From positions 1-64,000 of the forward strand of contig NZ_JACJQO010000010.1 of assembly GCF_014696715.1 (NCBI RefSeq): 64,000 nucleotides of DNA. The letters run 5' to 3'. How positions within the stretch are numbered: position 1 is the stretch's first letter; every line of letters begins with the position of its first letter. Of this stretch, positions 19,250 through 53,160 are shown piece after piece. Source of the stretch: Pseudanabaena sp. FACHB-2040 (GTDB lineage: Bacteria > Cyanobacteriota > Cyanobacteriia > Phormidesmidales > Phormidesmidaceae). The translations under genes and the position numbers were made by a program. A model generated the notes under the pieces. The model was not told where the DNA came from and ran no database searches. It was given only the letters and a program-made list of their open reading frames with translations.

Positions 19250-21721
19250 CTACACTCCCACTTCCTCCTCCTCAATGGATAAAGGGGAAGTCAATGCGCC
19301 CTGCTGATACTCCTCAAAGCTAAAGTCATCCACCTGAATGGCGTCATTACGAATCAGGTTCGTTCTGCTGATGAGATCCATCTCCTCGTCAGTAATCAGA
19401 TGAGCCTCGTAGGCCAGATCGACTAAATGCTCAGGCTTACCAGCCGGAATCTGCCCAGCCTGGCTTGCAAATTTGATCTTTCTCAGCACCGCCTGAGTCT
19501 GGTGAGTCAACCCAAACGCCTGCTCCAAACGGCCCAAAGCTTCCTGTTCGCTGGTAGGAATGTAGATGCCTGCGGTTAGGCGATCGCGGGTTTCTCCAGG
19601 CGTTTGCAAAGCCTGAGCGATCTGGCTGCCCAGCCGATCAGAAGGCAGCGTGCCGATGGGGTTCAGCCGCAACCAGGCCAGCAGAGGACCACGCAGCAGA
19701 GCCCCCACAACGGGAATATCCAGATTGCTGAAGATCCCTTCAAAACCCTGCTGCATTTGAGCAAAGGCATATTCCAGGCTCCACTGCACCAAAGGCAGAT
19801 CAGCGGCTTGGCTACATTCGGCCTCATATCGTCGCAGGGTTGCTGTCGCCAGATACTGCCAGGTCAAAATATCGGCAAAGCGACCCGTCAGCTTTTCCTT
19901 GCGCTTGAGGCTGCCGCCGTAGGTTAGCAGGGCAACATCGCTCAGCAGCGCAAAGGTCGTAGAAGCCCAGGCCAGCTTGCGGTAGTAGACAGCCGTTGGC
20001 CCCGGCACTGGCGATCGCACCAAACTGCCTCGGGTCAAGCTCAGCACCACACTGCGACAGCTATTGCTGACAATCGACCCCAAATGACCCCAAAACAGCC
20101 GATCAAACGCCACCAAATCAGCAGACTGGAGCGCCTGAATTTCTCCATATATGTAAGGGTGACAGCGAATCACGCCCTGACCAAAAATCATCAGGGTGCG
20201 GGTGAGAATGTTGGCTCCTTCAACGGTGATGGAGATCGGGATAGCGGTATAGATATTGGCCAGCAAGTTGCGAGGCCCCCGACAAATGCCAGAACCGCCA
20301 AGAATGTCCATGCCATCGTTGATGATTTGGCGAGCTAATTCGGTGGTGCTGTATTTTGCGATCGCACTCACCACCGCAGGTCGTTCACCCCGATCCACCG
20401 CGCCACAGGTATAGAGCCGAGCCGCATCAATAACGTAAGTCAGCGCGCCAATCCGGGCCAGCGGTTCCTCAATGCCTTCAAAGCGGCCAATGGAGAGGCC
20501 AAACTGCTGCCGCACCACACTATGGGCACTGGCAACCCGCGAAACCATTTTAGCCACGCCCGTACAGGTGGCAGGGAAGCTAATGCCCCGCCCCGCCGCC
20601 AGCGTTTGCATCAGCATCTTCCAACCCTGCCCCGCCTGCTCAACCCCGCCAATAATGTGGTCAATTGGCAGAATCACGTCATGCCCCTCAGTCGGAGAGT
20701 TGAAGAAAGGCACCCCCATTGGGTCATGGCGGCGATCTAGCTGCACTCCCGGCGTATCGGTAGGCACCAGGGCGCAGGTAATGCCCAAGTCGTGGCCTTT
20801 ACCCAGCAAATTTTCGGGGTCGTATAGGCGAAAGGCTAGACCGAGCAGAGTTGCGATCGCGCCCAGCGTGATGTAGCGCTTCTTCCAGTTCAGCCGCAGA
20901 TACAGCTCTCCATCCTTACCTCGAAACACTTCTCCGTGCGAGGTTAGACTAGCCGCATCAGAGCCAGCCGTCGGCTCCGTCAGCGCAAAGCAGGGAATTT
21001 CTTCGCCAATTGCCAAACGCGGTAGATAGCGAGCCTTTTGCTCCGGCGTGCCGTAGCGCAGCAGCAGCTTGGCCGGGCCAAGGGAGTTGGTCACTCCCAC
21101 GGTCGCCACATGGGTAAACGAGCGCGACGCCAGCTTTACCATCACCGCACTATAGGCCAGGTTAGAAAAGCCCAAGCCCCCAAACTCCGGCGGAATCATC
21201 ATGCCAAAAAACTTTTCCCGCTTGAGGTATTTCCACACCTCTGGCGGCAAATCCTTGCGCTGGTAAATCTCCCAGTCCGTCGCCATTTGGCAGACCGCTT
21301 CCACCGGCCCATCCAGAAACGCCTGCACCTCCGGCGACAGCTCCGGGTAAGGCTCGTTGATCAGCCGCTGCATGTTGGGCTTGCCGGTGAAGAACTCGCC
21401 CTCGACCCAGACATTTCCCGCTTCAATTGCCGCCCGCTCTGTCTCCGAAATCTTCGGCAGCTGCTTCGCTGCCAGTAGCGCAATCCAGCCCGTGACTAGC
21501 TGCCGCCGCAAGACTGGAATATTGAATATTAGCGCCACCACTGCAAAGGCAATCCACAGAGGAACCGGAGCGTAGAAGAGAACCAGGGCCGCCGCAGCGT
21601 AGAGAGTCCAAAGCCAAAGCGGTGGGCCGATGTAAGCAAGGGCAATGAGGGAGATGATGAGGGTGGGGAGGGTGAGGGAGATAGGGAGGGTGAGGGAGAT
21701 GGGGAGGGTGGGGTGAAGCAT
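19250..21721 (-). CDS. fadE: FadE-type acyl-CoA dehydrogenase
   Basis: 823 residues, close to the 814 of E. coli FadE. Several segments are nearly identical to what I recall of FadE: EEIPCFALTEPTAGSDAA (FAD/substrate loop), the WKKRYITLGAIATLLGLAF segment, GHDLGITCALVPTDTPGV, FGLSIGRFEGIEEPLARI and SITVEGANILTRTLMIFGQG. It catalyses the first, FAD-dependent step of beta-oxidation. Two or three membrane helices (about residues 20-75) fit the FadE N-terminus. The first 20 residues (repeated LTLPIS) are coded by a polypurine repeat, so the start region has been remodelled; no other in-frame ATG exists nearby. It lies in the same direction as the thiolase, FadN-like and acyl-CoA synthetase genes, separated only by a four-helix-bundle gene on the other strand. 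Confidence 0.95.
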   Translation of the reverse strand: MLHPTLPISLTLPISLTLPTLIISLIALAYIGPPLWLWTLYAAAALVLFYAPVPLWIAFAVVALIFNIPVLRRQLVTGWIALLAAKQLPKISETERAAIEAGNVWVEGEFFTGKPNMQRLINEPYPELSPEVQAFLDGPVEAVCQMATDWEIYQRKDLPPEVWKYLKREKFFGMMIPPEFGGLGFSNLAYSAVMVKLASRSFTHVATVGVTNSLGPAKLLLRYGTPEQKARYLPRLAIGEEIPCFALTEPTAGSDAASLTSHGEVFRGKDGELYLRLNWKKRYITLGAIATLLGLAFRLYDPENLLGKGHDLGITCALVPTDTPGVQLDRRHDPMGVPFFNSPTEGHDVILPIDHIIGGVEQAGQGWKMLMQTLAAGRGISFPATCTGVAKMVSRVASAHSVVRQQFGLSIGRFEGIEEPLARIGALTYVIDAARLYTCGAVDRGERPAVVSAIAKYSTTELARQIINDGMDILGGSGICRGPRNLLANIYTAIPISITVEGANILTRTLMIFGQGVIRCHPYIYGEIQALQSADLVAFDRLFWGHLGSIVSNSCRSVVLSLTRGSLVRSPVPGPTAVYYRKLAWASTTFALLSDVALLTYGGSLKRKEKLTGRFADILTWQYLATATLRRYEAECSQAADLPLVQWSLEYAFAQMQQGFEGIFSNLDIPVVGALLRGPLLAWLRLNPIGTLPSDRLGSQIAQALQTPGETRDRLTAGIYIPTSEQEALGRLEQAFGLTHQTQAVLRKIKFASQAGQIPAGKPEHLVDLAYEAHLITDEEMDLISRTNLIRNDAIQVDDFSFEEYQQGALTSPLSIEEEEVGV

Positions 21722-21845
21722 GGCTGGATTCCTTGGTTTGAGTGTTGGGATGGGAAGAATTGGTTGGGAGAAGAGGAAGTTTAAGGAGGTTAGGAAGATG
21801 GGGAAGTTAGGGGAGATGGGGGAGGTGGGGCAGCGGAGGTTGATT
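21640..21845. repeat. Polypurine low-complexity repeat covering two gene starts
   Basis: Imperfect copies of GGGAGGGTGAGGGAGAT and GGGGAGATGGGGGAGGTG. It encodes the first residues of FadE on the minus strand and the upstream/first codons of the four-helix-bundle gene on the plus strand. Similar tracts occur at 23461-23570, 26076-26160, 27540-27640, 38977-39075 and 41541-41637. Confidence 0.7.
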
Positions 21846-22208
21846 AAGAGTCATGAGGATTTGGTGATTTACCAGATGGCTTTTGAGGCAGCGATGCAGG
21901 TTTTTCAACTGACAAAATCTTTTCCTGTTGAAGAGCGATATTCTCTGACGGATCAGATGCGGCGGTCTTCTCGATCGGTCTGTGCAAACATGGCCGAGGC
22001 TTGGAGAAAGCGAAGATACCAAGCAGCTTTTATTGCCAAGCTCAATGACTGTGAAGCTGAGTCGGCTGAAACGCAGGTATGGCTAAAGTTCGCAGTTAAG
22101 TGCCGATACTTAGAACCAGAACAAGCGAAAGCTTTATACAGCACCTACAACCAAATCCTCAGCGGCCTAGTTCAGCTAATCAAAAACCCCAAAACCTGGC
22201 TCCTCTAA
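21798..22208 (+). CDS. Four-helix bundle protein (23S rRNA intervening-sequence family)
   Basis: 136 residues from ATG 21798 (AGGAGG eight bases upstream, within the polypurine repeat). The family signature is IKSHEDLVIYQMAFEAAMQV, then FPVEERYSLTDQMRRSSRSV and the ending RYLEPEQAKALYSTYNQILSGL. These short helical proteins of unknown role are found inside 23S rRNA inserts in some bacteria and as free-standing genes in many cyanobacteria. The longer frame starting at 21720 is coded by the repeat and is not needed. It interrupts the beta-oxidation group on the opposite strand. Confidence 0.85.
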   Translation: MGKLGEMGEVGQRRLIKSHEDLVIYQMAFEAAMQVFQLTKSFPVEERYSLTDQMRRSSRSVCANMAEAWRKRRYQAAFIAKLNDCEAESAETQVWLKFAVKCRYLEPEQAKALYSTYNQILSGLVQLIKNPKTWLL

Positions 22209-22262
22209 CTACCCCACCTCCCCTACCCCCCTCATCTCCCTCATCTCCCTATCTCCACATCC

Positions 22263-23447
22263 TCAGAGCATGAGATTCTCAAATACCCCCGCTGCGCCCA
22301 TACCGCCGCCGACGCACATGGAGACTAGGCCATAGCGAATACCACGACGCTGCATTTCATGGAGCAGAGTCGCAGTGAGCTTGGCACCACTACAGCCGAG
22401 AGGGTGGCCCAGTGCGATCGCACCGCCATTGACGTTAACGATGTCCTCATTGAGGCCCAGCTCACGGATGACGGCGATGGATTGGGCGGCAAAGGCTTCG
22501 TTTAGCTCGATCAGGCCGATGTCTTCTAAGGTCAGCCCAACTTGCTTGAGCACTTTAGGAATGGCGGCGACGGGGCCAATGCCCATGATTTCGGGGGGCA
22601 CTCCGGCGACGGTAAAGCCTAGGAGTTTGCCGAGCGGTTGCACGCCCAACTCATTGACTAGAGCTTCGCTCATGAGAACGGTTGCAGCAGCGCCATCAGA
22701 CATTTGGGAGGAATTGCCAGCGCTGACGGTGCCGTTGGCGCGGAAAACAGGTTTGAGTTGGGCCAGCGCTTCCGAGCTGGTGTCGGCGCGGGGGCCTTCG
22801 TCGGCGTCGAACTGGGTTTCTTGAGTGACAGCATGACCATCAAGGTACTGGGTTTCGTGTACCGTAATGGGGATGATTTCGTCTTTGAACTTGCCGGTGT
22901 TGAGGGCGGCTAGGGCACGCTGATGCGATCGCAATGCAAACGCATCCTGCTCCTCGCGAGAAACCTGAAACCGATCTGCCACATTTTCAGCAGTGATGCC
23001 CATCGTGACGTAGGCCGCAGGCATATCAGCCAGCAATTCCGGGTTAGGCAAAAACTGGTGCCCACCCATCGGAATCAGACTCATCGACTCTGCGCCCCCA
23101 GCCACTATCGCCTCGGCCTGCCCTGTGAGAATGGCTTGGTTTGCGATCGCAATGCTCTGCAACCCCGAAGCACACAGCCGGTTCACGGTAGCCCCCGCCA
23201 CCGTATCGGGCAGCCCCGCCCGCAGCGCCACTACCCGGCCCAGGTTGTAGCCCTGCTGCGCCTCGGGCATAGCGCAGCCCATAATCACATCATCAATCTG
23301 GTTTGAGACCAGCCCCGGCACTTTTTCCAAAGCTCCCTGCACCACCGTCGCACCCAGGTCATCTGAGCGCATGTGGCGCAGCGTACCGCGCGGGGCTTTG
23401 CCGATAGCGGTTCTGACGGAGCTGACTATATAGGCGTTGGTTGTCAT
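22263..23447 (-). CDS. fadA: Acetyl-CoA acyltransferase (3-ketoacyl-CoA thiolase)
   Basis: 394 residues, normal thiolase length. Catalytic residues: C92 in [10 protein letters not shown]348 in [15 protein letters not shown]378 in [16 protein letters not shown] near residue 317 is also conserved. It performs the thiolytic last step of beta-oxidation. In context (FadN-like, FadE, acyl-CoA synthetase) a degradative role is much more likely than the biosynthetic acetoacetyl-CoA role. The 183-bp spacer to the upstream FadN-like gene is filled with polypurine/TTTAGGG repeats. Confidence 0.93.
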
Positions 23448-23460
23448 GGGTTTGCTCCTG

Positions 23461-23610
23461 TAGGGGAGGGGGTGAGGGGTATAGGGTGAAGGGTTTAAGG
23501 TTTAGGGTTTAGGGTTTAGGGGGTGAAGGGGAGAGGAGAGAGGGAAGGTGAGAGAGATGGGGAAGCGGACAAAGCTGTTGCCTTAACCTTGCACCTTAGA
23601 CCCTAAACCC
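23461..23610. repeat. TTTAGGG heptamer run and its inverted copy
   Basis: TTTAGGG occurs at 23501, 23508 and 23515 within GGTTTAGGGTTTAGGG-type sequence, and the complement CCCTAAACCC occurs at 23601-23610, so the spacer can fold into a large hairpin. Polypurine tract between them. It lies between thiolase and FadN-like genes. Confidence 0.7.
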
Positions 23611-23630
23611 TAGACCCCTTTTTCCCTGCC

Positions 23631-25994
23631 TTAATTCCTCAACGGCTTCTTCGTCTTCAGCATGTGCAAGATCCGCTCTTTCGTTTTGGGTTCGTCGATT
23701 AGCGGTAGGAAGTTGTCTTTCTCTAGGCGCAGCAGGTAGTCGTCGTCTACGGAGGCGGGTACAGTGAGGTCGCCGCCAGTGAGGACGTAGGCTAGGCGGT
23801 TGGCAAGGGAGCGGTCGTAGTCGCTGGCGTAGCCGCCTTGCTGCAGGATGTAGGCCATGTGCTCTAGGCTGGCTCGGGCGGGTTGGCCGAGGACGGGGAT
23901 GGGGTCGCGGGAGGGCGGGGTGTAGCCGAGGTGATCGAGGCAGAGGACTTCCTGCTTGGCGGCGTAGAGGCGGCGATCGCTGTTGATCACGACTTTGGCA
24001 GTGGGCAGCAAAAAGCCGAGTTCTTTGGCTTCGTAGGCGCTGTTGGCAACTTTGGCCATGCCCACGGTTTGGAAGACCTGCTGCACCCAGGGCAGGATGT
24101 CGCTGGGGCTATCGGTCATGGCTCGGTTGGCGGCCCAGCGGGCCAGCCGCATCAGGCCGCCTCCGGCGGGGATGAGGCCGACGCCGAGTTCTACTAGGCC
24201 GATGTAGGTTTCAGCGTCGGCGACGACTTGGGGGCAGGCCATTGCTAGCTCACAGCCGCCGCCTAGCACCCGCCCTTGAATGGCGGCCACAACGGGTTTG
24301 TGGAAATAGTAGATGCGCTGCACCAGGGCTTGGAATTTGGTTAGGAGGTTTGCGATCGCACCATGATTGCGACTAAACGGATTCAGGTTTTCCCACTGGG
24401 CGATCTTGCCGACCTCGGCCAGGTTGATGCCGACACAGAAGTTCTGCCCCTCGTTGCCGATGACCATGCCCCGGTAGTCGTGGGTTTCTAGCCAGTCCAG
24501 TGCCTCGATCAGCCCGTCAATCACCTTGACGCTGAGGGTATTGGCTTTAGAGCGAAACTCGTACAGCATCACCCCATCTCCTAGGTCTAGCAGGGCGGCT
24601 TCGCTGTTGTGCCAAAGGGTGCGCTTTGCATCGGCTTTTATGTCTGCCAAATGCAGTTCGTCAGCGGGACGATCCAGCGCCACGTATTGTTGGCCTGGGA
24701 TATAAACGGTGCCATCTTCCCGGTAAAAGCGGGTTGCGCCACTTTGCCGCATCTGCTCTAGCCAAGGAGGTAGTGCTAAACCTGCCGCCTGCAGGTCTTT
24801 CACCACAGTTTCGAATCCTAAGGCATCCCAAATCTCAAAGGGCCCCATCTCCCAGCCAAAGCCCCAGCGCATCGCCCGGTCGACATCGGCAGGGCTGTCG
24901 GCAATTTCGGGAATGCGGTTGGCGCTATAGGCCAGCGTGGACAGCGTGGACTGGCGGAAGAAGTCGCCGCCTCGGCCTTTTTGGCGGTACAGCGCCCGCA
25001 GCCGATCGGGCAGGCTAGACATCTTCTGAATACCGTCCAGATTGCCCAAGTGCATGGGCTGAGCCGCTTCGTAGGCAAAGGTCTTGGGATTCAGCGACAA
25101 GATTTCTCCCTTCACCTTCTTGTAAAAGCCCTGGCCCGATTTGGCTCCCAGCGTGCCCGTCTCCACCAGCTTGCGGAACAGATCGGGTACCTGGAACTGG
25201 TGCCGCTGCTCATCGTGGGGAATGGCCGGATAGAGGTTTTCGGCTACATACAGCAGCGTATCTAGCCCCACCAGATCGGCAGTGCGAAATGTAGCTGACT
25301 TGGGCCGACCGATCAGAGTCCCCGTTAAGGTGTCGATTTCTTCAATGGTGTAGCCCTGATTTGTAAACGCTTTCACGCCCAGCATGGAGACAAAGACGCC
25401 AATGCGGTTGGCGATAAAGTTCGGCGTATCTTTGGCTAGCACCACACCTTTGCCCAGGTACATGCGGCCAAACCACGCCATTCGCTCCAGCACCTGCGGA
25501 TCGGTATCAGCGGTGGGAATCAGCTCCAGCAGCTTCAGATAGCGGGGCGGATTGAAGAAGTGAGTCCCCAAAAAGCGCTGCCGAAAAGACTTCGAACGCC
25601 CCTGAGCAATGCCCTGTAAAGACAGGCCGCTGGTGTTGGTAGAAATGACGGTATGCTTGCCGACCACCTTCTCAACCCGCTCCATCAGCTGCTGCTTGAC
25701 GGTTAGGTTCTCAACCACTGCCTCAATCACCCAGTCCACCTCAGCGAGCCGATCAAAGTGCTCATCGTAGTTGCCAAGAATCACTCGCTGAGCCGCCTTT
25801 TGGGTGTAGAAAATTGGCGGCGACAGCTTTTGGGCCTTCTTAAACGCGCCTTCCACTAAGTCATTTTTGTTGCCCTTTTGAGCAGGCAATTCCAGCAAAT
25901 GAACCGTCAGACCCGCATTGGCCAAGTGGGCTGCAATCTGAGCCCCCATTACCCCTGCTCCTAAGACAGCCGCCGTCCGAAATGGCTTGAACAT
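23631..25994 (-). CDS. fadN: 3-hydroxyacyl-CoA dehydrogenase/enoyl-CoA hydratase fusion (FadN type)
   Basis: 787 residues from ATG 25994 (GAGGGAA seven bases upstream). The N-terminal half is the NAD-binding dehydrogenase: AAVLGAGVMGAQIAAHLANAG at the start, STNTSGLSL and GTHFFNPPRYLKLLELI (catalytic His region), then KDTPNFIANRIG. The C-terminal part, from about residue 480, is an enoyl-CoA hydratase/crotonase: NEGQNFCVGINL (oxyanion hole), IQGRVLGGGCELAMAC and VELGVGLIPAGGGLMRL. Dehydrogenase-first order matches B. subtilis FadN rather than E. coli FadB. It catalyses the two middle steps of beta-oxidation. The synthetase gene lies 34 bases upstream on the same strand, probably in one operon. 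Confidence 0.94.
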   Translation of the reverse strand: MFKPFRTAAVLGAGVMGAQIAAHLANAGLTVHLLELPAQKGNKNDLVEGAFKKAQKLSPPIFYTQKAAQRVILGNYDEHFDRLAEVDWVIEAVVENLTVKQQLMERVEKVVGKHTVISTNTSGLSLQGIAQGRSKSFRQRFLGTHFFNPPRYLKLLELIPTADTDPQVLERMAWFGRMYLGKGVVLAKDTPNFIANRIGVFVSMLGVKAFTNQGYTIEEIDTLTGTLIGRPKSATFRTADLVGLDTLLYVAENLYPAIPHDEQRHQFQVPDLFRKLVETGTLGAKSGQGFYKKVKGEILSLNPKTFAYEAAQPMHLGNLDGIQKMSSLPDRLRALYRQKGRGGDFFRQSTLSTLAYSANRIPEIADSPADVDRAMRWGFGWEMGPFEIWDALGFETVVKDLQAAGLALPPWLEQMRQSGATRFYREDGTVYIPGQQYVALDRPADELHLADIKADAKRTLWHNSEAALLDLGDGVMLYEFRSKANTLSVKVIDGLIEALDWLETHDYRGMVIGNEGQNFCVGINLAEVGKIAQWENLNPFSRNHGAIANLLTKFQALVQRIYYFHKPVVAAIQGRVLGGGCELAMACPQVVADAETYIGLVELGVGLIPAGGGLMRLARWAANRAMTDSPSDILPWVQQVFQTVGMAKVANSAYEAKELGFLLPTAKVVINSDRRLYAAKQEVLCLDHLGYTPPSRDPIPVLGQPARASLEHMAYILQQGGYASDYDRSLANRLAYVLTGGDLTVPASVDDDYLLRLEKDNFLPLIDEPKTKERILHMLKTKKPLRN

Positions 25995-26028
25995 GGTCGT
26001 TTCCCTCAAAAATGCAGTGCTTACTGGA

Positions 26029-28128
26029 CTAATGGCGCATCAAAGACTTCGCATACACTGGACAAGCTTCTCCCCCTTCCCCGTCTCCCCAAACTCCTCT
26101 ACCTTCTCTCTCCGCGTCCCCGCGTTCTCCCCTCCCCACGTCTTCCCCGCCCCCATACAGCCCCTCAATTTCCCCGGCAAACCGCTCCAGCACTGCTGTT
26201 CGGTTCACCCGCCCATCTGCCAACAGCAGACCGTTTTCCTGAGTCAACTCAGCATCGACTAGGACAAACTTGCGAACGGTAGACCAGTAAGGCAGGTGGC
26301 AATTGGCTGTATCAATCAAAGGCTGGTAGAGGGCCACAATGCGCGGCTGCTGGAGCCATCCAGGGCAACCTGCATCAATGCCCCAGGTTTCGGCCCCAAC
26401 TCGCAGGGCTTCTAGGTTAGGAAAAATCAGCAGGCCGCAGAACTTTCGGTTAAGGCCGACCGTAATGGCGTGGGCTACTAAGGGAGATCTCATCAGCCCC
26501 TGCTCCAATGGCAGAGCCGACACATATTTGCCCGTAGAGAGCTTAAACAGCGGTTTCTTGACCCCGGTAATAGTGAGAAATCGGTCAGCCGAGAGCGTGC
26601 CCAAGTCCCCCGTATGGAGCCAGCCCGCTTCGTCAATCGCCTGTCGAGTCGCCTCCGGATCTTGGTAGTAGCCCTGCATTACAAAGGGCGCGCGGATGAG
26701 GATCTCGTGATCGGGTGCGATCGCAACCTCCACCCCCGGAATTGGCATTCCGACCGTACCTGCCCGGTTGTCTGTGCCCCGGTTGTAGCAGACCACGCCG
26801 CTGCTCTCTGTCAGGCCGTAGCCTTGGAGAACGGGCACCCCCGCCGCTGAGAAAAACCGCACCAGTTCCTCCGACAGCGCCGCCCCGCCGCTAATGCAGG
26901 CCCGCAGCCGTCCGCCAAACACATCTCGCCACTGGCCAAACACCAGCCGATCTGCCAACTGTAGCTGCAGCGCATACAGACGGTGCGGCGTTCGGTTTAG
27001 GTTAAATCGCTGAGCCAGCTTAATGGCCCACAGCAGCACCGCCCGATCAAACCGACTCAAATGCTGCGCCCGATCCAAAATCCGCTCATGCACTTTCTCC
27101 AGCAGACGCGGCACCGTAATTAAAAATGTCGGCTTCACCCGCCTCAGATGTTTGATTAGGTGATTGGCATCCGAGAAGTAAATGCTGTGCCCAAAGGCCA
27201 AGTGCCCGTAGAGAAACACCCTGGCAAAAATATGGGTCAGCGGCAAAAACAGCAGCGCTACTTCCTCTGGCCCAGTCGGCAGGTCAGGATAGCTAGAAAA
27301 CGCCGCCAGCACATTCGCCGTGATGTTCTCATGGCTCAGCATCACGCCCCTAGGCTGTTTAGTCTCACTCGGGATATAGAGAATCGTCGCTAAGTCGTGG
27401 GGTGCGATCGCATCTCGCAACCCACGCACCCCCGCCTCCGACCACCGCTCCCACCCCCACGCGCTGACCTCAGCCAAAGTCGCTAGCTGAACACACTGAG
27501 GACAAGGCGACGGACAGGGCGATCCCGACGGTTGCTGGCAGAGGAGGCGGGGGATTTGGAGGCAGGATTCGGGGTGAGGGGAAGAGGACGCAGGGATATG
27601 GAGACGCGGAGGCGCATCCCCATATTCCCGAGTCTCTTCTATCTCCACCAACACCACACTCCCTAACTCCGGCGTCTCCCACAAATAGGGCATGAGCTGA
27701 TTGAGCAGGTCTTGATTGGAAATGACTAGGGCCTTAGCGGCGGTTTGCTGCAGAATGAATAGGATGTTTTCGATGGTTTGGGTGAGGTCGATGGGGACAT
27801 CGACAAGTCCGGCTAACAGGCAGCCCATGTCTGCGATCGCAAATCCTGTGTCGCTGTGCATAACTAGCGCGACCCGGTCTCCTCGAACCAGCCCCAAGGT
27901 TTCTAGGCCCAGGGCAAATTCTTCGGCGGCCCGACGAAATTCGGGGATTGGGAGGGATTGCCATCGGCCCCGACGCCACTGATTGAGGGTTTGCTGGGGA
28001 GCCGCGGGGTCTTCCTGCAGGGAAGGCTGGCCCTCGCAAGCCTGATCCAACAAAGCGGGTAGAGTGCGTCCTAAAATTGGACTTTCGGCTTCTAAGGCAG
28101 CACAGTGACTGACTGATATTGCATTCAT
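26029..28128 (-). CDS. AMP-forming long-chain acyl-CoA synthetase-like protein
   Basis: 699 residues of the ANL (AMP-binding) superfamily. Clear motifs: LSHENITANVLAAF, LPLTHIFARVFLYGHL, the AMP-binding core GYGLTESSGVV, the GWLHTGDLG motif and the LSTGKYVSALPLEQ hinge region. It should activate fatty acids to acyl-CoA for the adjacent beta-oxidation enzymes. Two oddities: the phosphate-binding loop reads YIPSETKQPRG (residues 251-261) instead of the usual TSGTTGxPKG, and the conserved DRKK hinge reads GVKK. Residues about 165-215 and 660-696 are low-complexity segments coded by polypurine repeats, probable later insertions. Acyl-ACP synthetase (Aas) activity, known in cyanobacteria, is an alternative. 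Confidence 0.85.
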   Translation of the reverse strand: MNAISVSHCAALEAESPILGRTLPALLDQACEGQPSLQEDPAAPQQTLNQWRRGRWQSLPIPEFRRAAEEFALGLETLGLVRGDRVALVMHSDTGFAIADMGCLLAGLVDVPIDLTQTIENILFILQQTAAKALVISNQDLLNQLMPYLWETPELGSVVLVEIEETREYGDAPPRLHIPASSSPHPESCLQIPRLLCQQPSGSPCPSPCPQCVQLATLAEVSAWGWERWSEAGVRGLRDAIAPHDLATILYIPSETKQPRGVMLSHENITANVLAAFSSYPDLPTGPEEVALLFLPLTHIFARVFLYGHLAFGHSIYFSDANHLIKHLRRVKPTFLITVPRLLEKVHERILDRAQHLSRFDRAVLLWAIKLAQRFNLNRTPHRLYALQLQLADRLVFGQWRDVFGGRLRACISGGAALSEELVRFFSAAGVPVLQGYGLTESSGVVCYNRGTDNRAGTVGMPIPGVEVAIAPDHEILIRAPFVMQGYYQDPEATRQAIDEAGWLHTGDLGTLSADRFLTITGVKKPLFKLSTGKYVSALPLEQGLMRSPLVAHAITVGLNRKFCGLLIFPNLEALRVGAETWGIDAGCPGWLQQPRIVALYQPLIDTANCHLPYWSTVRKFVLVDAELTQENGLLLADGRVNRTAVLERFAGEIEGLYGGGEDVGRGERGDAEREGRGVWGDGEGGEACPVYAKSLMRH

Positions 28129-28813: not shown

Positions 28814-29683
28814 CTACTGGTGATAACTCAACTCGCAGAGCAAGCCCTTGTTCTCTACATGCCGGTTGATCCAGTTCACGACATCTAGAGACACTTGCCG
28901 AGCACAAATATCGTTGTGCAAGTCATGTAGGCCGCCCGAATATTCCCGGTACTCTTTATCGATAAGAGAGAGCTGCCCAAATAGCAGCCGGCTGCCGTCT
29001 GGTGGTACCACCGAGTCCTCACTACCTTGGAGAAGCAGCAGCGGAACCTGCAGAGTGAGCAGCTCCGTTCGCAGCCGTCTGGCAGTATTCAGAAACTCTG
29101 TTGCCAGGCGAGCTGTACCCTGTCGGTGCCGTAGCGGATCGCTCGCATACGCAGCCACCCAGTCTGGGCAGCGAGAACCGGCCTCTTCTGGAAGCCCTGT
29201 ATCTAAAGAGAACCGAGGCCAGACCCGCGAAAAGGCTCTGCCAATGCCCATCTTGATAGGAGAAACCCCAACCGGGCCAATAGCAGGTGCGATCGCAACC
29301 ACACCCGGCAACGCATCAGAGCACCGCAGAGCATAGTCCAAAACAACCGTAGCCCCCAAGCTATGCCCCAATAGAAAACAGAGCGCCCCCGGATTTTGCG
29401 CCGCCATGAGCTGCCAAAACTTGCCCACATCCCAACACAGCTCCGCCCACCGGTTAATGTGGCCCCGCTGACCCGGAGACTGCCCATGCCCCCGCAAATC
29501 CACGCTATAAACCCCATAACCAGAAGCCACTAAGCCCTCAACCAAGGAGCCAAACAGCCCACTGTGGCTCCCCAACCCCGGCACAATACCCACCACCGCT
29601 TTTACCTCTGCAGCAGGGTGCCAGCACTGGTAATAAAGCTCCAGCTTCCCATCACCCGTAAATCGCCCTTCTCGATGCCTCAT
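28814..29683 (-). CDS. Alpha/beta hydrolase, monoacylglycerol lipase-like
   Basis: 289 residues from ATG 29683 (a longer frame opens at 29713). Motifs: VGIVPGLGSHSGLFGSL (oxyanion region), SVDLRGHGQSPGQRGHINRW, the nucleophile elbow FLLGHSLGATVVL, and near the end LQGSEDSVVPPDGS (Asp) and YSGGLHDLHND (His). This is the bacterial monoglyceride lipase/lysophospholipase pattern. It would release fatty acids from glycerolipids. It follows the DUF1400 hydrolase by 50 bases in the same direction, probably one operon, and lies just upstream of the beta-oxidation genes, a suggestive functional context. Confidence 0.88.
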   Translation of the reverse strand: MRHREGRFTGDGKLELYYQCWHPAAEVKAVVGIVPGLGSHSGLFGSLVEGLVASGYGVYSVDLRGHGQSPGQRGHINRWAELCWDVGKFWQLMAAQNPGALCFLLGHSLGATVVLDYALRCSDALPGVVAIAPAIGPVGVSPIKMGIGRAFSRVWPRFSLDTGLPEEAGSRCPDWVAAYASDPLRHRQGTARLATEFLNTARRLRTELLTLQVPLLLLQGSEDSVVPPDGSRLLFGQLSLIDKEYREYSGGLHDLHNDICARQVSLDVVNWINRHVENKGLLCELSYHQ

Positions 29684-29733
29684 ACCCTCAAACTCCAAAC
29701 TCCAAACAACCAACCCCCACCCTTATCCCCCCT

Positions 29734-31386
29734 TCACGTCCCATCTCCCCGTGTCTCTCCCATCTCCTGCCACGACCCCGAACTCACCAGCCACAGATCA
29801 AAAGGAGGCTGACTGAGATAGGCCGCATAGTCAGCAGTAAGCTGAGGCAAGCAATCGATGCCTTGAGCCAGGTACTGGTTAAAAAAGGCGAGGCTGAGAG
29901 CATTGATGTACTGGTCAAAGGGGAGTTCACAGCAGGTGCCTACGTTTTGGGGCAATATTTTGACCCGCAGGTTTAAAGACTCGGTCAGACGCTGCAGGTT
30001 TCTGATGTGAGTTTTGCCCTGTATCACGCCCAGGTAGCAGTGAGGGTTTTTTAGGCCCTGAAAGAGACGGATTTGCTCGCAGACCAAGGGCGCAGCGATA
30101 TCCCGACTGCTCGCCAGCAGCAGGGCCGGTACCTGAATTTGCCCCATACCCTGTGCGCCAAAAACCCCACTGCCCACTGCATCGAGAGAGACAATGGCCT
30201 GAATGCGCGCATCCTGCAGGGGATAAGCACCGCGCGGCAGCCCCAGCGCCTGACACTGCAGCAGCAGCGACAGATTCAGTTCATTCCAGGGGAGACGGCA
30301 GGCGGCCTCCAGCGTTTCGAAATGAATGGCGGCTCCAGCTAAGGCAAACGCGGTGTAAGCGCCAAAAGAGTAGCCCATCACGCCAACGGCCCGAAGGTTG
30401 AGCAGGCCGCCAAATTGAGTGTCGTTGCACTGCTCTAGCCCGTCTAAAAGACGGCTAATCTCTAGCGGTCGATCGATAAACTCTTGAGCCTTAAAAAGGT
30501 CTTGGGATTTGCCTTCTAGCAGGTTTCGCACCTGCTGCATATCGCTGCCAGCGTGCCAGGGCGCGGCGACAAAATAACCGTGAGAGGCCAAGTGTCGGGC
30601 ATAGCCCTCTAGATCTTCTGGGCTAGAGGCTAACCCGTGAGATTGAATGACTACGGGCACGCTCTGGGTAGGCCAGGGCTGCGGCTGATAGCAACGAACC
30701 CGGATTGGCCGGGAGGATAGCTCCCTGCCAGCAGAGCTTTCTTCACTCTCCAGCACCAGCGTGTGCTGCACAACTTCGAATGCTCCTGGCTTTCGCAGGT
30801 CGGGGGCCTGGGAAAAGTCTGGGGATAAGCCCATCGTCAATTCGGCTGCGGCCAAATTTTGGAGGGTGGCAAGAATGGTTTCGGTTTCTTTGAGCAACCG
30901 TTCTACATCCCCAGCAGTGAGGAGTAGCTGGTCTAGATTGAACTGTAGGGTATGGGGAAAATGGCGCATGAAGCTCAGTAAGGACAGACCCTCTGGGTCT
31001 TCTGCCATCTGGATGAGCAGATTTTTCAGGAGGTGTCTTTGAGCTGCCTGATCTGCTGGTGCGGGTAAGTAGAAAAAGCGCTCAAACCACGACAGTACGG
31101 TGTCGCCTATGGAGGTGCCCAAAAAATAGCCAAGCTGGATCGGATCGAGCGTGAGCTGCGATCGCAAAATCTGTCGGCACCGGGCTTGATGAATCTGATG
31201 CGCCTTGCCGAGATAGACCCTACAGGTTCTATCGGCTAGGTGAGGCAAGGTCTGTGCGGCTATAAATCCTTGACTGCGGCGCAGGAGCTTTACCAGCAGC
31301 GCCTTAACCTGCTTGATGACAGTCTGCCTGGATTGAGCCTTGGGAGAATTGAATGGAGGATTGGCTGGAGAGTCGGCGTGAACCAT
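29734..31386 (-). CDS. DUF1400-containing alpha/beta hydrolase (PAF-acetylhydrolase-like)
   Basis: 550 residues. The N-terminal about 170 residues match the DUF1400 type found in cyanobacterial hydrolases: LTLDPIQLGYFLGTSIGDTV and MAEDPEGLSLLSFMRHFP. The hydrolase domain follows: VVIQSHGLASSPEDLEGYARHL, the nucleophile elbow GVMGYSFGAYTAFAL, LLASSRDIAAP and GKTHIRNL near the C-terminus (candidate acid and His). The first about 40 residues are basic and lack a clear signal peptide. Function unproven; an esterase or lipase role is inferred. It is adjacent to a second hydrolase gene. Confidence 0.85.
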   Translation of the reverse strand: MVHADSPANPPFNSPKAQSRQTVIKQVKALLVKLLRRSQGFIAAQTLPHLADRTCRVYLGKAHQIHQARCRQILRSQLTLDPIQLGYFLGTSIGDTVLSWFERFFYLPAPADQAAQRHLLKNLLIQMAEDPEGLSLLSFMRHFPHTLQFNLDQLLLTAGDVERLLKETETILATLQNLAAAELTMGLSPDFSQAPDLRKPGAFEVVQHTLVLESEESSAGRELSSRPIRVRCYQPQPWPTQSVPVVIQSHGLASSPEDLEGYARHLASHGYFVAAPWHAGSDMQQVRNLLEGKSQDLFKAQEFIDRPLEISRLLDGLEQCNDTQFGGLLNLRAVGVMGYSFGAYTAFALAGAAIHFETLEAACRLPWNELNLSLLLQCQALGLPRGAYPLQDARIQAIVSLDAVGSGVFGAQGMGQIQVPALLLASSRDIAAPLVCEQIRLFQGLKNPHCYLGVIQGKTHIRNLQRLTESLNLRVKILPQNVGTCCELPFDQYINALSLAFFNQYLAQGIDCLPQLTADYAAYLSQPPFDLWLVSSGSWQEMGETRGDGT

Positions 31387-49260: not shown

Positions 49261-49619
49261 TGGGGGCGGAGGGGCTCGAACCCTCACGACCGTTTCAGGT
49301 CAACGGATTTTCATTCTCCCGCAGCTTTCGCTGCTGCCAAGCTAAACCGGCTTTAAGCCGAGCGGCTTTGAGAATTGGACCCTCCCTTTACCCTCGACTT
49401 GACGTTAGGGTAGCTCCCGTCGGGCCTCTGCACCTTCCGTCTACTCCAAAGGAGAAGAACGGCTTGGCTCAGGATTGCCGTGTCTGAGCAGCTAGCTGAC
49501 TAAGCAGGTAGTCTGACCAAAGTTAGGTTTCCCTGAGTTTGAGAGCTTCCACTTGGCACATTTCTCTGCCAAGGCTCAGTTTTCTAAGTCCGTAGCGTCT
49601 ACCATTCCGCCACGCCCCC
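49261..49619 (-). tRNA. trnL(UAA): tRNA-Leu(UAA) split by a group I intron
   Basis: 5' exon 49619-49586 (34 nt, GGGGGCGTGGCGGAATGGTA then GACGCTACGGACTT), intron 49585-49312 (274 nt), 3' exon 49311-49261 (51 nt). Joined exons give an 85-nt tRNA: acceptor stem GGGGGCG/CGCCCCC, anticodon stem-loop ACGGA-CTTAAAA-TCCGT with anticodon UAA, a long variable arm, T-loop GGTTCGAGCC and discriminator A73. The intron sits directly after U34, the conserved position of the cyanobacterial and plastid trnL group I intron. The CCA end is not encoded. Confidence 0.95.
49312..49585 (-). other. Group I intron in trnL(UAA)
   Basis: 274 nt. It begins AGAAAACTGAGCCTTGGCAG and ends with G immediately before the 3' exon (terminal GAATG). 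No reading frame for a homing endonuclease. Boundaries deduced from exon pairing; secondary structure P1-P9 not fully traced. Confidence 0.9.
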
Positions 49620-51669: not shown

Positions 51670-53160
51670 ATGTCAACACTGACCCTTGAAGCCCTGTTAG
51701 GCCCTAACTCTACCCGAAATGGTACAGCTGAGGCAGTTAATGGTGTTCTACAGCTGACCCCAGATGCCCCCCTGCAGGCTGGCAGCGCGTTCTACAACAT
51801 ACCTGTCAGCGTTACCCAGTCGTTTCAAAGCGCCTTTCGGTTTCAAATTGATGGCACTTCAGCCACAACAGGAGCTGATGGCCTCACATTTTTGCTGCAG
51901 AGTAGCCCCTTAGGCCCCAGTGCGCTGGGAGATGATGGGGGTAACCTAGGCTACTTAGCTGACTCCGTTCCGCTGATTACCCCGGCTGTCGTGGTAGAGT
52001 TCGATACCTTTTTTAACCCTGAGAATAACGACAACCCGAACCTGCTGACCACTTCAGCAAATCTTTCTGAATACAATGCGGTTGAACTCATTAGCTATAG
52101 TGCTGGCGGCGCAGGGCAAATTCTTGAGCAGATAAAACCTGACGTAGTCTTCAATACTGGCGACGTTTATACAGCTTGGATTGACTACACCGCCTCTGAG
52201 ACTGGGCCAGGCGTGCTGCAGATTTCTACTGCTTTGGGCGCTTCAAAACCTGCTCAGCCCCTAGTTTCTCAAGAAATAGACCTGTCATCTGTTTTAGGGT
52301 CTCAAGCTTTTCTAGGGTTCACTGCTGGTTCAGGTAACGCCTTTAACAGTCACGATATCTTAAGCTGGGGCTTTGCCCGACAGGGAGCAGTAGGCACAGG
52401 CTATCTTAACTTCAGGCAGTTCACTGAGGCGGCAGCGCTTGAGCTTGGAGTCGATATTCCCTATCAGGATTTGGAGGTGAACGGGCTCTTCACCAGCCTG
52501 TTCTACGATGAAACCTATTACCTCTGCCGAAACCCGGATATTGCAGTAGCCGTCGCCAATGGTTTTTTCACCTCAGGCTATGAACACTTTCTTACTTTCG
52601 GGTTGCTTGAGGGGCGTAGTCCCAGTATCTTGTTCCGCGAAACCTACTACTTGAACCAGAATCCGGATGTTGCCCAAGCCAAAGTTGATGGTGTTGTCGT
52701 TAGCGGCTTCCAGCACTACATTCAGTTTGGTCAGGTAGAGGGCCGCGATCCCAGTGCTCTATTTAATGAGCGGGCTTACCTAGCGGCTAATGGCGATGTT
52801 CAAGCTGCTGTGGGTGAAGGGCTGTTCACAAGCGGCTTCGATCATTACATTGAATTTGGTGCATCGGAAGGCAGAGGGCCTAGCCTGATCTTGTTTAACG
52901 AGAACTACTACCTCACTCAGTACAGTGACGTGGCCAGTGCTCTGGCGAGTGATGTTATCACCAGTGGCTTTCAGCACTATATTCTGTTTGGACAAGGCGA
53001 GCAGCGTAATCCTAGCGGCATTTTTGATGAGGCCGCCTACTTGGCAGCTAATTCAGATGTGGCGGGGGCTGTGAGTGCAGGCGCATTTTCTAGCGGCTTC
53101 CAGCATTACATCTTGAGCGGTCGCTGCGAAGGTCGAGCTGCGATACCGGTTGCTGCGTAA
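51670..53160 (+). CDS. L-type lectin-like protein with five C-terminal repeats
   Basis: 496 residues. Residues about 1-240 form an L-type (legume-like) lectin domain: FRFQIDGTSATTGADGLTFLLQ, VVVEFDTFFNPENNDN (metal-binding D and N residues) and FTAGSGNAFNSHDILSWGF. From about 275 there are five repeats of 40-44 residues of the type LFxExxYLxxNxDVxxAVxxGxFxSGFxHYIxFGxxEGRxPS. The same repeats end many cyanobacterial extracellular proteins. No signal peptide, so secretion by a type I system or cell lysis is possible. Repeats may bind calcium or polysaccharide; that is inference. Confidence 0.8.
   Translation: MSTLTLEALLGPNSTRNGTAEAVNGVLQLTPDAPLQAGSAFYNIPVSVTQSFQSAFRFQIDGTSATTGADGLTFLLQSSPLGPSALGDDGGNLGYLADSVPLITPAVVVEFDTFFNPENNDNPNLLTTSANLSEYNAVELISYSAGGAGQILEQIKPDVVFNTGDVYTAWIDYTASETGPGVLQISTALGASKPAQPLVSQEIDLSSVLGSQAFLGFTAGSGNAFNSHDILSWGFARQGAVGTGYLNFRQFTEAAALELGVDIPYQDLEVNGLFTSLFYDETYYLCRNPDIAVAVANGFFTSGYEHFLTFGLLEGRSPSILFRETYYLNQNPDVAQAKVDGVVVSGFQHYIQFGQVEGRDPSALFNERAYLAANGDVQAAVGEGLFTSGFDHYIEFGASEGRGPSLILFNENYYLTQYSDVASALASDVITSGFQHYILFGQGEQRNPSGIFDEAAYLAANSDVAGAVSAGAFSSGFQHYILSGRCEGRAAIPVAA

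Follow-up and report, generated by a model that had tools for sequence, protein, structure and literature searches.

A beta-oxidation operon with a degenerate ligase-like protein in a minority of cyanobacteria

Here, we describe a group of four genes on a stretch of 64,000 nucleotides, in the following called the window, which covers positions 1-64000 of contig C10 in the host genome G000 (6,283,586 bp in 44 contigs). The genes code for a ligase-like protein, FadN, a thiolase and FadE and form contiguous intact open frames on the minus strand within 9 kb (Table 1). This agrees with the original prediction, whose coordinates, frames and families are retained, with a reservation on the ligase discussed below; the thiolase residues it had named are confirmed by alignment. 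The intergenic gaps are 19 bp between the ligase-like gene and FadN, 183 bp between FadN and FadA, and 541 bp between FadA and FadE. Two alpha/beta-hydrolase genes, ABH1 and ABH2, are located upstream.

Table 1. Genes of the four-gene locus and the two upstream hydrolase genes, in window coordinates.
Feature	Coordinates	Strand	Evidence or position
FadE, long (E. coli-type) acyl-CoA dehydrogenase	19250..21721	-	NF007000, ACDH_C; hydrophobic N-terminal segments
FadA, 3-ketoacyl-CoA thiolase	22263..23447	-	TIGR01930; C92/H348/C378
FadN, 3-hydroxyacyl-CoA dehydrogenase / enoyl-CoA hydratase	23631..26009	-	domain and NCBIfam matches
Ligase-like (ANL-fold) protein, degenerate ATP motifs	26029..28128	-	PF00501, motif alignment, fold model
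ABH1, alpha/beta-hydrolase (Hydrolase_4, S33), GHSLG	28814..29713	-	upstream of the ligase-like gene
ABH2, alpha/beta-hydrolase (DUF1400 / PAF-acetylhydrolase-like), GYSFG	29734..31386	-	upstream of ABH1

Between FadE and the thiolase, an open reading frame for a four-helix bundle (23S_rRNA_IVP/TIGR02436; 21720-22208) is found on the plus strand, and its ATG overlaps that of FadE as drawn. Short tandem repeats occur around the FadE start (21646-21710 and 21785-21821) and in the gap between FadA and FadN (23477-23521); those around the FadE start are read through by FadE and the four-helix frame as drawn. A scan for promoters and terminators at the locus scored below the shuffled mean. Elsewhere, the window holds a Group I intron (RF00028, 67 bits; 49356-49595, minus strand), possibly marking an intron-split tRNA gene, with no tRNA reported by ARAGORN in the window, and a gene for a legume-lectin domain protein (PF00139, 103 bits; 51670-53160, plus strand), here in a cyanobacterium.

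According to domain models and alignments, all four activities of the beta-oxidation cycle are represented, with catalytic-type residues. FadN shows the domain order of a FadN-type fusion, 3HCDH_N and 3HCDH followed by the enoyl-CoA hydratase; its best model, NF052272, is matched with 659 bits, below the model's cut-off of 999. Its start codon is TTG, with an ATG five codons on. The catalytic-type residues S127, H150, E162, N201, E587 and E607 are conserved in the alignment, four sites in 33/33 cyanobacterial copies and two in 32/33 with one gap. The thiolase reaches 463 bits with TIGR01930 (cut-off 241), keeps its C/H/C residues in 31/31, 30/31 and 30/31 cyanobacterial copies (the rest being gaps), and is the only match to itself in the host genome at E <= 1e-30; locus L195 was left out of the FadN and FadA residue counts. 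FadE is assigned to the long form by NF007000 (1031 bits, cut-off 600) and PF09317 (ACDH_C, 323 bits), and scores 864 bits with the E. coli-specific model NF038187, below its cut-off of 1300. Residue E501 is conserved in all 30 aligned cyanobacterial copies, window included and L198 left out. The start of FadE is uncertain, since residues 4-26 as drawn lie in the tandem repeats at 21646-21710; its first hydrophobic segment falls in these repeats. All FadE copies examined have an N-terminal hydropathy segment, apart from the interrupted one of L198, and the model of the window FadE has helices within residues 11-85. Its closest solved relatives, by sequence and by fold, are ACAD9 and VLCAD.

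In the passages cited here, cyanobacteria are said to lack beta-oxidation (PMC7379126, PMC6123915) or to have an incomplete one (PMC11546870), with a contrary statement on recycling through beta-oxidation in S. elongatus (PMC3750487). Among titles and abstract starts, with few subscription journals covered, we found no paper on this operon, on cyanobacterial beta-oxidation operons or on the absence of the electron-transferring flavoprotein (ETF) in cyanobacteria. A sample of 386 genomes, spread evenly over the phylum, was surveyed with thresholds of E <= 1e-30 for FadN and E <= 1e-60 for long FadE. FadN is matched in 18 of them; the match spans most of the protein in six genomes of the window's class (its own genome included; G185 in two pieces) as well as in two more distant genomes, G047 and G053. 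Long FadE is found in the same six class members and in three distant genomes. Both occur together in 6 of the 386 genomes, all of the window's class and including its own, and in 6/6 the ligase and thiolase genes adjoin them, always as this operon. The gene set is thus rare among cyanobacteria, which supports the original prediction on this point. Presence is patchy even within the family, which the host genome shares with Adonisia turfae, since 23 of 59 nearer relatives (own genome included) have a FadN match. Among the 80 named-genome loci ranked best by similarity, ten are cyanobacterial, from Leptolyngbyaceae, Oculatella, Fischerella thermalis PCC 7521, two Xenococcaceae MAGs, Xenococcus PCC 7305, Aphanocapsa, Prochloraceae, Adonisia turfae and Pseudanabaenaceae. 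Thus a minority of cyanobacteria, culture-collection strains included, carry beta-oxidation genes, against the published generalisation.

For comparison, we assembled 33 further non-redundant cyanobacterial loci, where duplicates were judged by identical FadN ends and L192, a duplicate of L105, was left out of all counts. In all 33, the detected genes lie on one strand in the order ligase-FadN-FadA-FadE, as far as each contig reaches. The ligase-like gene is present in 32, and the contig of the remaining one, L195, ends just upstream of FadN. The FadE of L198 has one in-frame TAG, and the FadN of L195 is in pieces.

One might suspect a contaminating contig or a recent import from a heterotroph, given that FadN has no match at threshold in 36 of the 59 relatives. 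This is extremely improbable. The contig belongs to a genome that is 99.95% complete with 0.75% contamination, the nearest relatives of its genes are other cyanobacteria (FadN about 60-80% identical), and isolates such as Fischerella thermalis PCC 7521 have the same operon. The operon genes have a G+C content of 0.57-0.59, compared to 0.56-0.61 in five other window genes. On these grounds we reject contamination, and the resemblance in G+C disfavours a very recent entry of the operon. Third-position G+C is likewise within or nearly within the range of the five other genes, except for FadN (0.71 vs 0.61-0.66).

The initial reading of the locus had taken the mix of an E. coli-type FadE with a B. 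subtilis-type FadN gene order as a sign of assembly from another phylum. The relation to another phylum is supported by the trees; the making of the mix in this strain is ruled out, as four other loci already have it. Of the 70 non-cyanobacterial loci among the best 80, only L107 and L108 (both Rhodothermales), L109 (Balneolia) and L110 (an unclassified bin, bin.449) carry a long FadE within the flank that was fetched, at 53-61% identity; the remaining ones show a partial FadE match at 22-31%, none, or a contig end. In a FadN tree of 100 rows (L194, L195 and L202 left out, L123 dropped by the tree tool), the 31 cyanobacterial rows form one clade (SH-aLRT 100), which joins L107, L108 and L110 (89, branch not starred) and then L109; the resulting 35 rows are held together at 100. 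A ligase tree of 52 rows, built without L186 and L202, which carry an insertion in the P-loop, likewise unites 31 cyanobacterial rows (100) and groups them with L107, L108 and L110 at 100. Since Rhodothermota share the gene order with a long FadE and the cyanobacterial copies form one clade beside them, the FadN/FadE mix predates the cyanobacterial operon. The presence of this mix in two Rhodothermales, one Balneolia genome and an unclassified bin makes it most likely that cyanobacteria received the operon as a block. The simplest reading of these trees would be one entry from a Rhodothermota/Balneolota-like donor, where the suggested direction of transfer rests on the unstarred branch and a similarity-ranked sample. 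Apparently, the operon came from another phylum a long time ago and has since been altered.

In a LysC tree, the 18 members of family f1 that were tested group together (97/98), while a single clade of the 12 f1 members with the operon is rejected by the tree of concatenated FadN, FadA and FadE (AU p 3.65e-57); the FadE of G211 was left out of this tree and of the identity table, and G425 gave no LysC match. This conflict rules out simple vertical inheritance within cyanobacteria. On such phylogenetic evidence, the operon has moved or was differentially lost inside cyanobacteria, and ancient duplication with loss may be an alternative to movement.

The original prediction called the gene set complete. 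This holds for the four cycle activities and becomes doubtful at two steps: at activation, because the ligase-like protein has lost its adenylation motifs in 33/33 cyanobacterial copies, and at the electron acceptor, because no ETF-alpha was found in the host genome. The ligase-like protein matches PF00501 with 195 bits and stays below the cut-off of all NCBIfam models among the matches listed (25 of 79). Names and roles of the motifs (A5, A7, A8, A10 and P-loop) follow the usage for the ANL family. Counts refer to 33 cyanobacterial copies (32 loci and the window), to 15 of 24 non-cyanobacterial operon ligases, and to six second AMP-ligases of operon-bearing genomes, taken to be Aas. The P-loop TSGTTGxPKG, by which an ATP-dependent (FadD-like) acyl-CoA synthetase is recognised, is missing from the window protein. 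Exact TSGTTG occurs in 0/33 cyanobacterial copies, compared to 15/15 non-cyanobacterial operon ligases and 4/6 of Aas type, with the P-loop Lys kept in 22/33. The A8 Arg is found in 0/33 (15/15 and 6/6 in the two reference groups) and the A10 Lys in 3/33 (15/15 and 5/6); the window protein has Arg at the A10 position, with which the phmmer alignment to CAR agrees. In the nine remaining, more distant non-cyanobacterial ligases, a wider search pattern finds the P-loop in 8/9 (the ninth frame is cut by a contig end), the A8 Arg in 9/9 and an A10-like Lys in 7/9. Retained in 32-33 of the 33 cyanobacterial copies are A5 Tyr/Gly/Thr, A7 Thr-Gly-Asp and A8 Lys/Gly/Tyr, while the A5 Glu is present in 27/33 and replaced by Gln in six. 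The aligned "A8 Asp" site (Gly in 32/33) says little, because Aas-type ligases have Gly as well. In L186 and L202, an insertion of 34 columns is located within the P-loop, a further sign that ATP binding is not kept there.

A decaying pseudogene is not favoured. The cyanobacterial ligase-like frames are open over 606-1021 aa, and dN/dS amounts to 0.075-0.243 in 7 of 8 pairs where it is computable, some with saturated dS; these values are mostly higher than those of FadN in the same pairs (0.042-0.097). By these measures, the ligase-like protein looks constrained. Its AlphaFold model shows the whole ANL fold with a mean pLDDT of 84, and Foldseek matches it to CAR, 4CL and luciferase. The model is nearer to luciferase 4g37 (second conformation, rmsd 5.1) than to 4g36 (adenylate-forming, 11.4), and nearer to 4CL 5bsr (AMP and CoA, 5.7) than to 5bsm (ATP, 10.8). 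This preference is weak, as 4CL 5bst, in its adenylate-bound form, comes close too (5.5), and a canonical-ligase control model is lacking. The motif pattern is as expected if adenylation were lost and AMP/CoA-side chemistry kept. Judged from the A10 Lys in 3/33 and the P-loop Lys in 22/33, weak adenylation could persist. If confirmed, a conserved ligase-like protein without ATP motifs would constitute a new functional variant.

ETF is the usual electron carrier in mitochondria and many bacteria; for E. coli FadE this role is not established. The search covered its alpha subunit, ETF-alpha (PF00766, E <= 1e-5). ETF-alpha has no match in any of 28 Cyanobacteriia, 17 with the operon and 11 others, nor in ten named cyanobacterial carriers; as Adonisia is in both lists, this makes 26 distinct operon-bearing cyanobacteria. 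It is present in 18/18 non-cyanobacterial carriers searched, in 10 of 14 control genomes and in G001 and G053, basal relatives in the same phylum; G047, also of this phylum and 74% complete, gave no match. Given 0/26 cyanobacterial against 18/18 non-cyanobacterial carriers, the cyanobacterial FadE probably works without ETF. Further fadE copies in the host genome, whose search the original prediction had proposed, were not found in the long form. Two further ACAD-domain proteins, one DszC/SfnB-like and one FadE16-like, are present there, both below the cut-offs of those models. The gene of the DszC/SfnB-like oxidoreductase (L241, 934-2166, minus strand) adjoins a gene resembling, by eye, an ABC-transporter ATPase. 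Because ETF-less cyanobacteria carry other ACAD-domain proteins, the absence of ETF does not by itself define the acceptor of FadE.

Both steps bear on the view that this is an ordinary beta-oxidation, in which the ligase-like protein, despite its divergent P-loop, would still be an ATP-dependent acyl-CoA synthetase and FadE would be served by a carrier that went unrecognised. Its modelled ANL fold, whole and related to CAR, 4CL and luciferase (pLDDT 84), and its gene in 32/33 loci, the 33rd being contig-limited, are what one would expect of such an enzyme. P-loop, A8 Arg and A10 Lys (30/33) are gone, however, and all three are kept in 15/15 non-cyanobacterial operon ligases; ETF-alpha is without match in 28 Cyanobacteriia, yet is matched in the basal G001 and G053. 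We therefore regard an ordinary pathway as unlikely.

Apart from the core operon, ABH1 is near it in 19 of the 33 other cyanobacterial loci (three times behind FadE) and ABH2 in nine, on contigs that are often short. A single frame joins ABH1 to the ligase-like gene in L102 and L190, and ABH2 to ABH1 in L105, L187, L188, L189, L191 and L194; Pfam finds both domains in 4/4 fusions scanned (L102, L190, L105 and L191). The GxSxG serine is kept in 20/20 ABH1 and 10/10 ABH2 copies, window included. In the fetched flanks of L107-L110, no ABH1 is near the operon. Fusion and adjacency suggest a link of the hydrolases to the pathway, such that lipid hydrolysis may feed it. Against this link stand the presence of ABH1 in only 19/33 loci and its distance of 685 bp from the ligase-like gene in the window, where 20 bp separate ABH1 from ABH2.

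Isocitrate lyase was found in one of the 17 operon-bearing genomes (G334) and not in the other 16, and has no match in the host genome, so that growth on fatty acids alone via a glyoxylate shunt is unlikely in these 16. A role in energy supply or in the recycling of acetyl-CoA is more plausible. The same result, the patchy distribution and the linked hydrolases would also suit a partial or biosynthetic use, in which acyl chains are not burnt but are shortened or remodelled by the module to make a special lipid or a secondary metabolite. All four cycle activities are apparently kept with catalytic-type residues, though, and phototrophs, as we reason, can draw on acetyl-CoA for energy or resynthesis without a glyoxylate shunt. 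Such a use thus seems improbable to us.

On balance, we lean towards an ETF-free, ATP-sparing beta-oxidation for lipid salvage, encoded by a block related to that of Rhodothermota/Balneolota and altered in cyanobacteria. The module would salvage the cell's own or scavenged acyl lipids, from which ABH1 and ABH2 may release acyl chains. These would reach CoA with the help of the ligase-like protein, which would no longer perform the ATP-dependent adenylation. FadE, anchored by its N-terminal hydrophobic helices, would make enoyl-CoA and pass electrons directly to the membrane quinone pool, a route proposed because no ETF-alpha is found, or partly to O2. FadN would hydrate and oxidise, and FadA cleave; acetyl-CoA would enter the TCA cycle or fatty-acid synthesis rather than a glyoxylate shunt. 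Enzymatic activities, direct electron route, hydrolase role and the function of the ligase-like protein are what we infer from sequence and models. A bolder version, possible if rather doubtful, holds that the ligase has turned into an ATP-free acyl-transfer protein handing the acyl group to CoA, and that FadE reduces plastoquinone directly. Its acyl source would be the adjacent or fused serine hydrolase, or acyl-ACP, supplied by the cell's acyl-ACP synthetase, via bound acyl-AMP. If true, lipid turnover would supply the membrane of photosynthetic electron transport with no need of ETF, or of ATP at the CoA step.

Among the closest known systems are the operons of L107-L110, the nearest in the trees. 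They share FadN-FadA-long FadE in the same order (4/4) and the ligase in three, the contig of L109 ending just upstream of FadN. In contrast to the window, their ligase motifs are canonical, ETF-alpha is present in 4/4, and the fetched flanks have no ABH1 or ABH2 match. The B. subtilis-type fadN-fadA-fadE operon agrees with the window in the FadN family and in the order FadN-thiolase-acyl-CoA dehydrogenase (most Bacillota loci), whereas its acyl-CoA dehydrogenase aligns with the window FadE over local stretches only, at 22-31%, and the four Bacillota carriers searched (L119, L121, L122 and L132) all have ETF-alpha, unlike the cyanobacteria. For the ligase-like protein, the nearest parallel is PtmA2, described in the cited part of a review as a non-adenylating acyl-CoA ligase that has lost adenylation and kept the thioester half (PMC6594144). 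Both have the ANL fold, and by its motifs the window protein has apparently undergone the same change; PtmA2, in contrast, serves platensimycin/platencin biosynthesis and works with PtmA1 (PMC6594144). The window FadE shares 45.9% identity with that of E. coli K-12 (814 aa), and both are long with a hydrophobic N-terminal part. According to the passages cited, E. coli FadE has no identified ETF partner and direct quinone reduction is possible (PMC11495604); E. coli has ETF homologues, but an ETF that it requires on fatty acids is not known (PMC9329746). Unlike the window, E. coli combines these homologues with a FadBA complex (PMC9329746), whereas here fadE shares an operon with the FadN and thiolase genes and occurs in genomes without detected ETF-alpha. 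The latter genomes thus offer evidence from nature for a route without ETF, and a clean test system for the open question, raised in the cited parts of both papers (PMC11495604, PMC9329746), of the electron acceptor of E. coli-type FadE.
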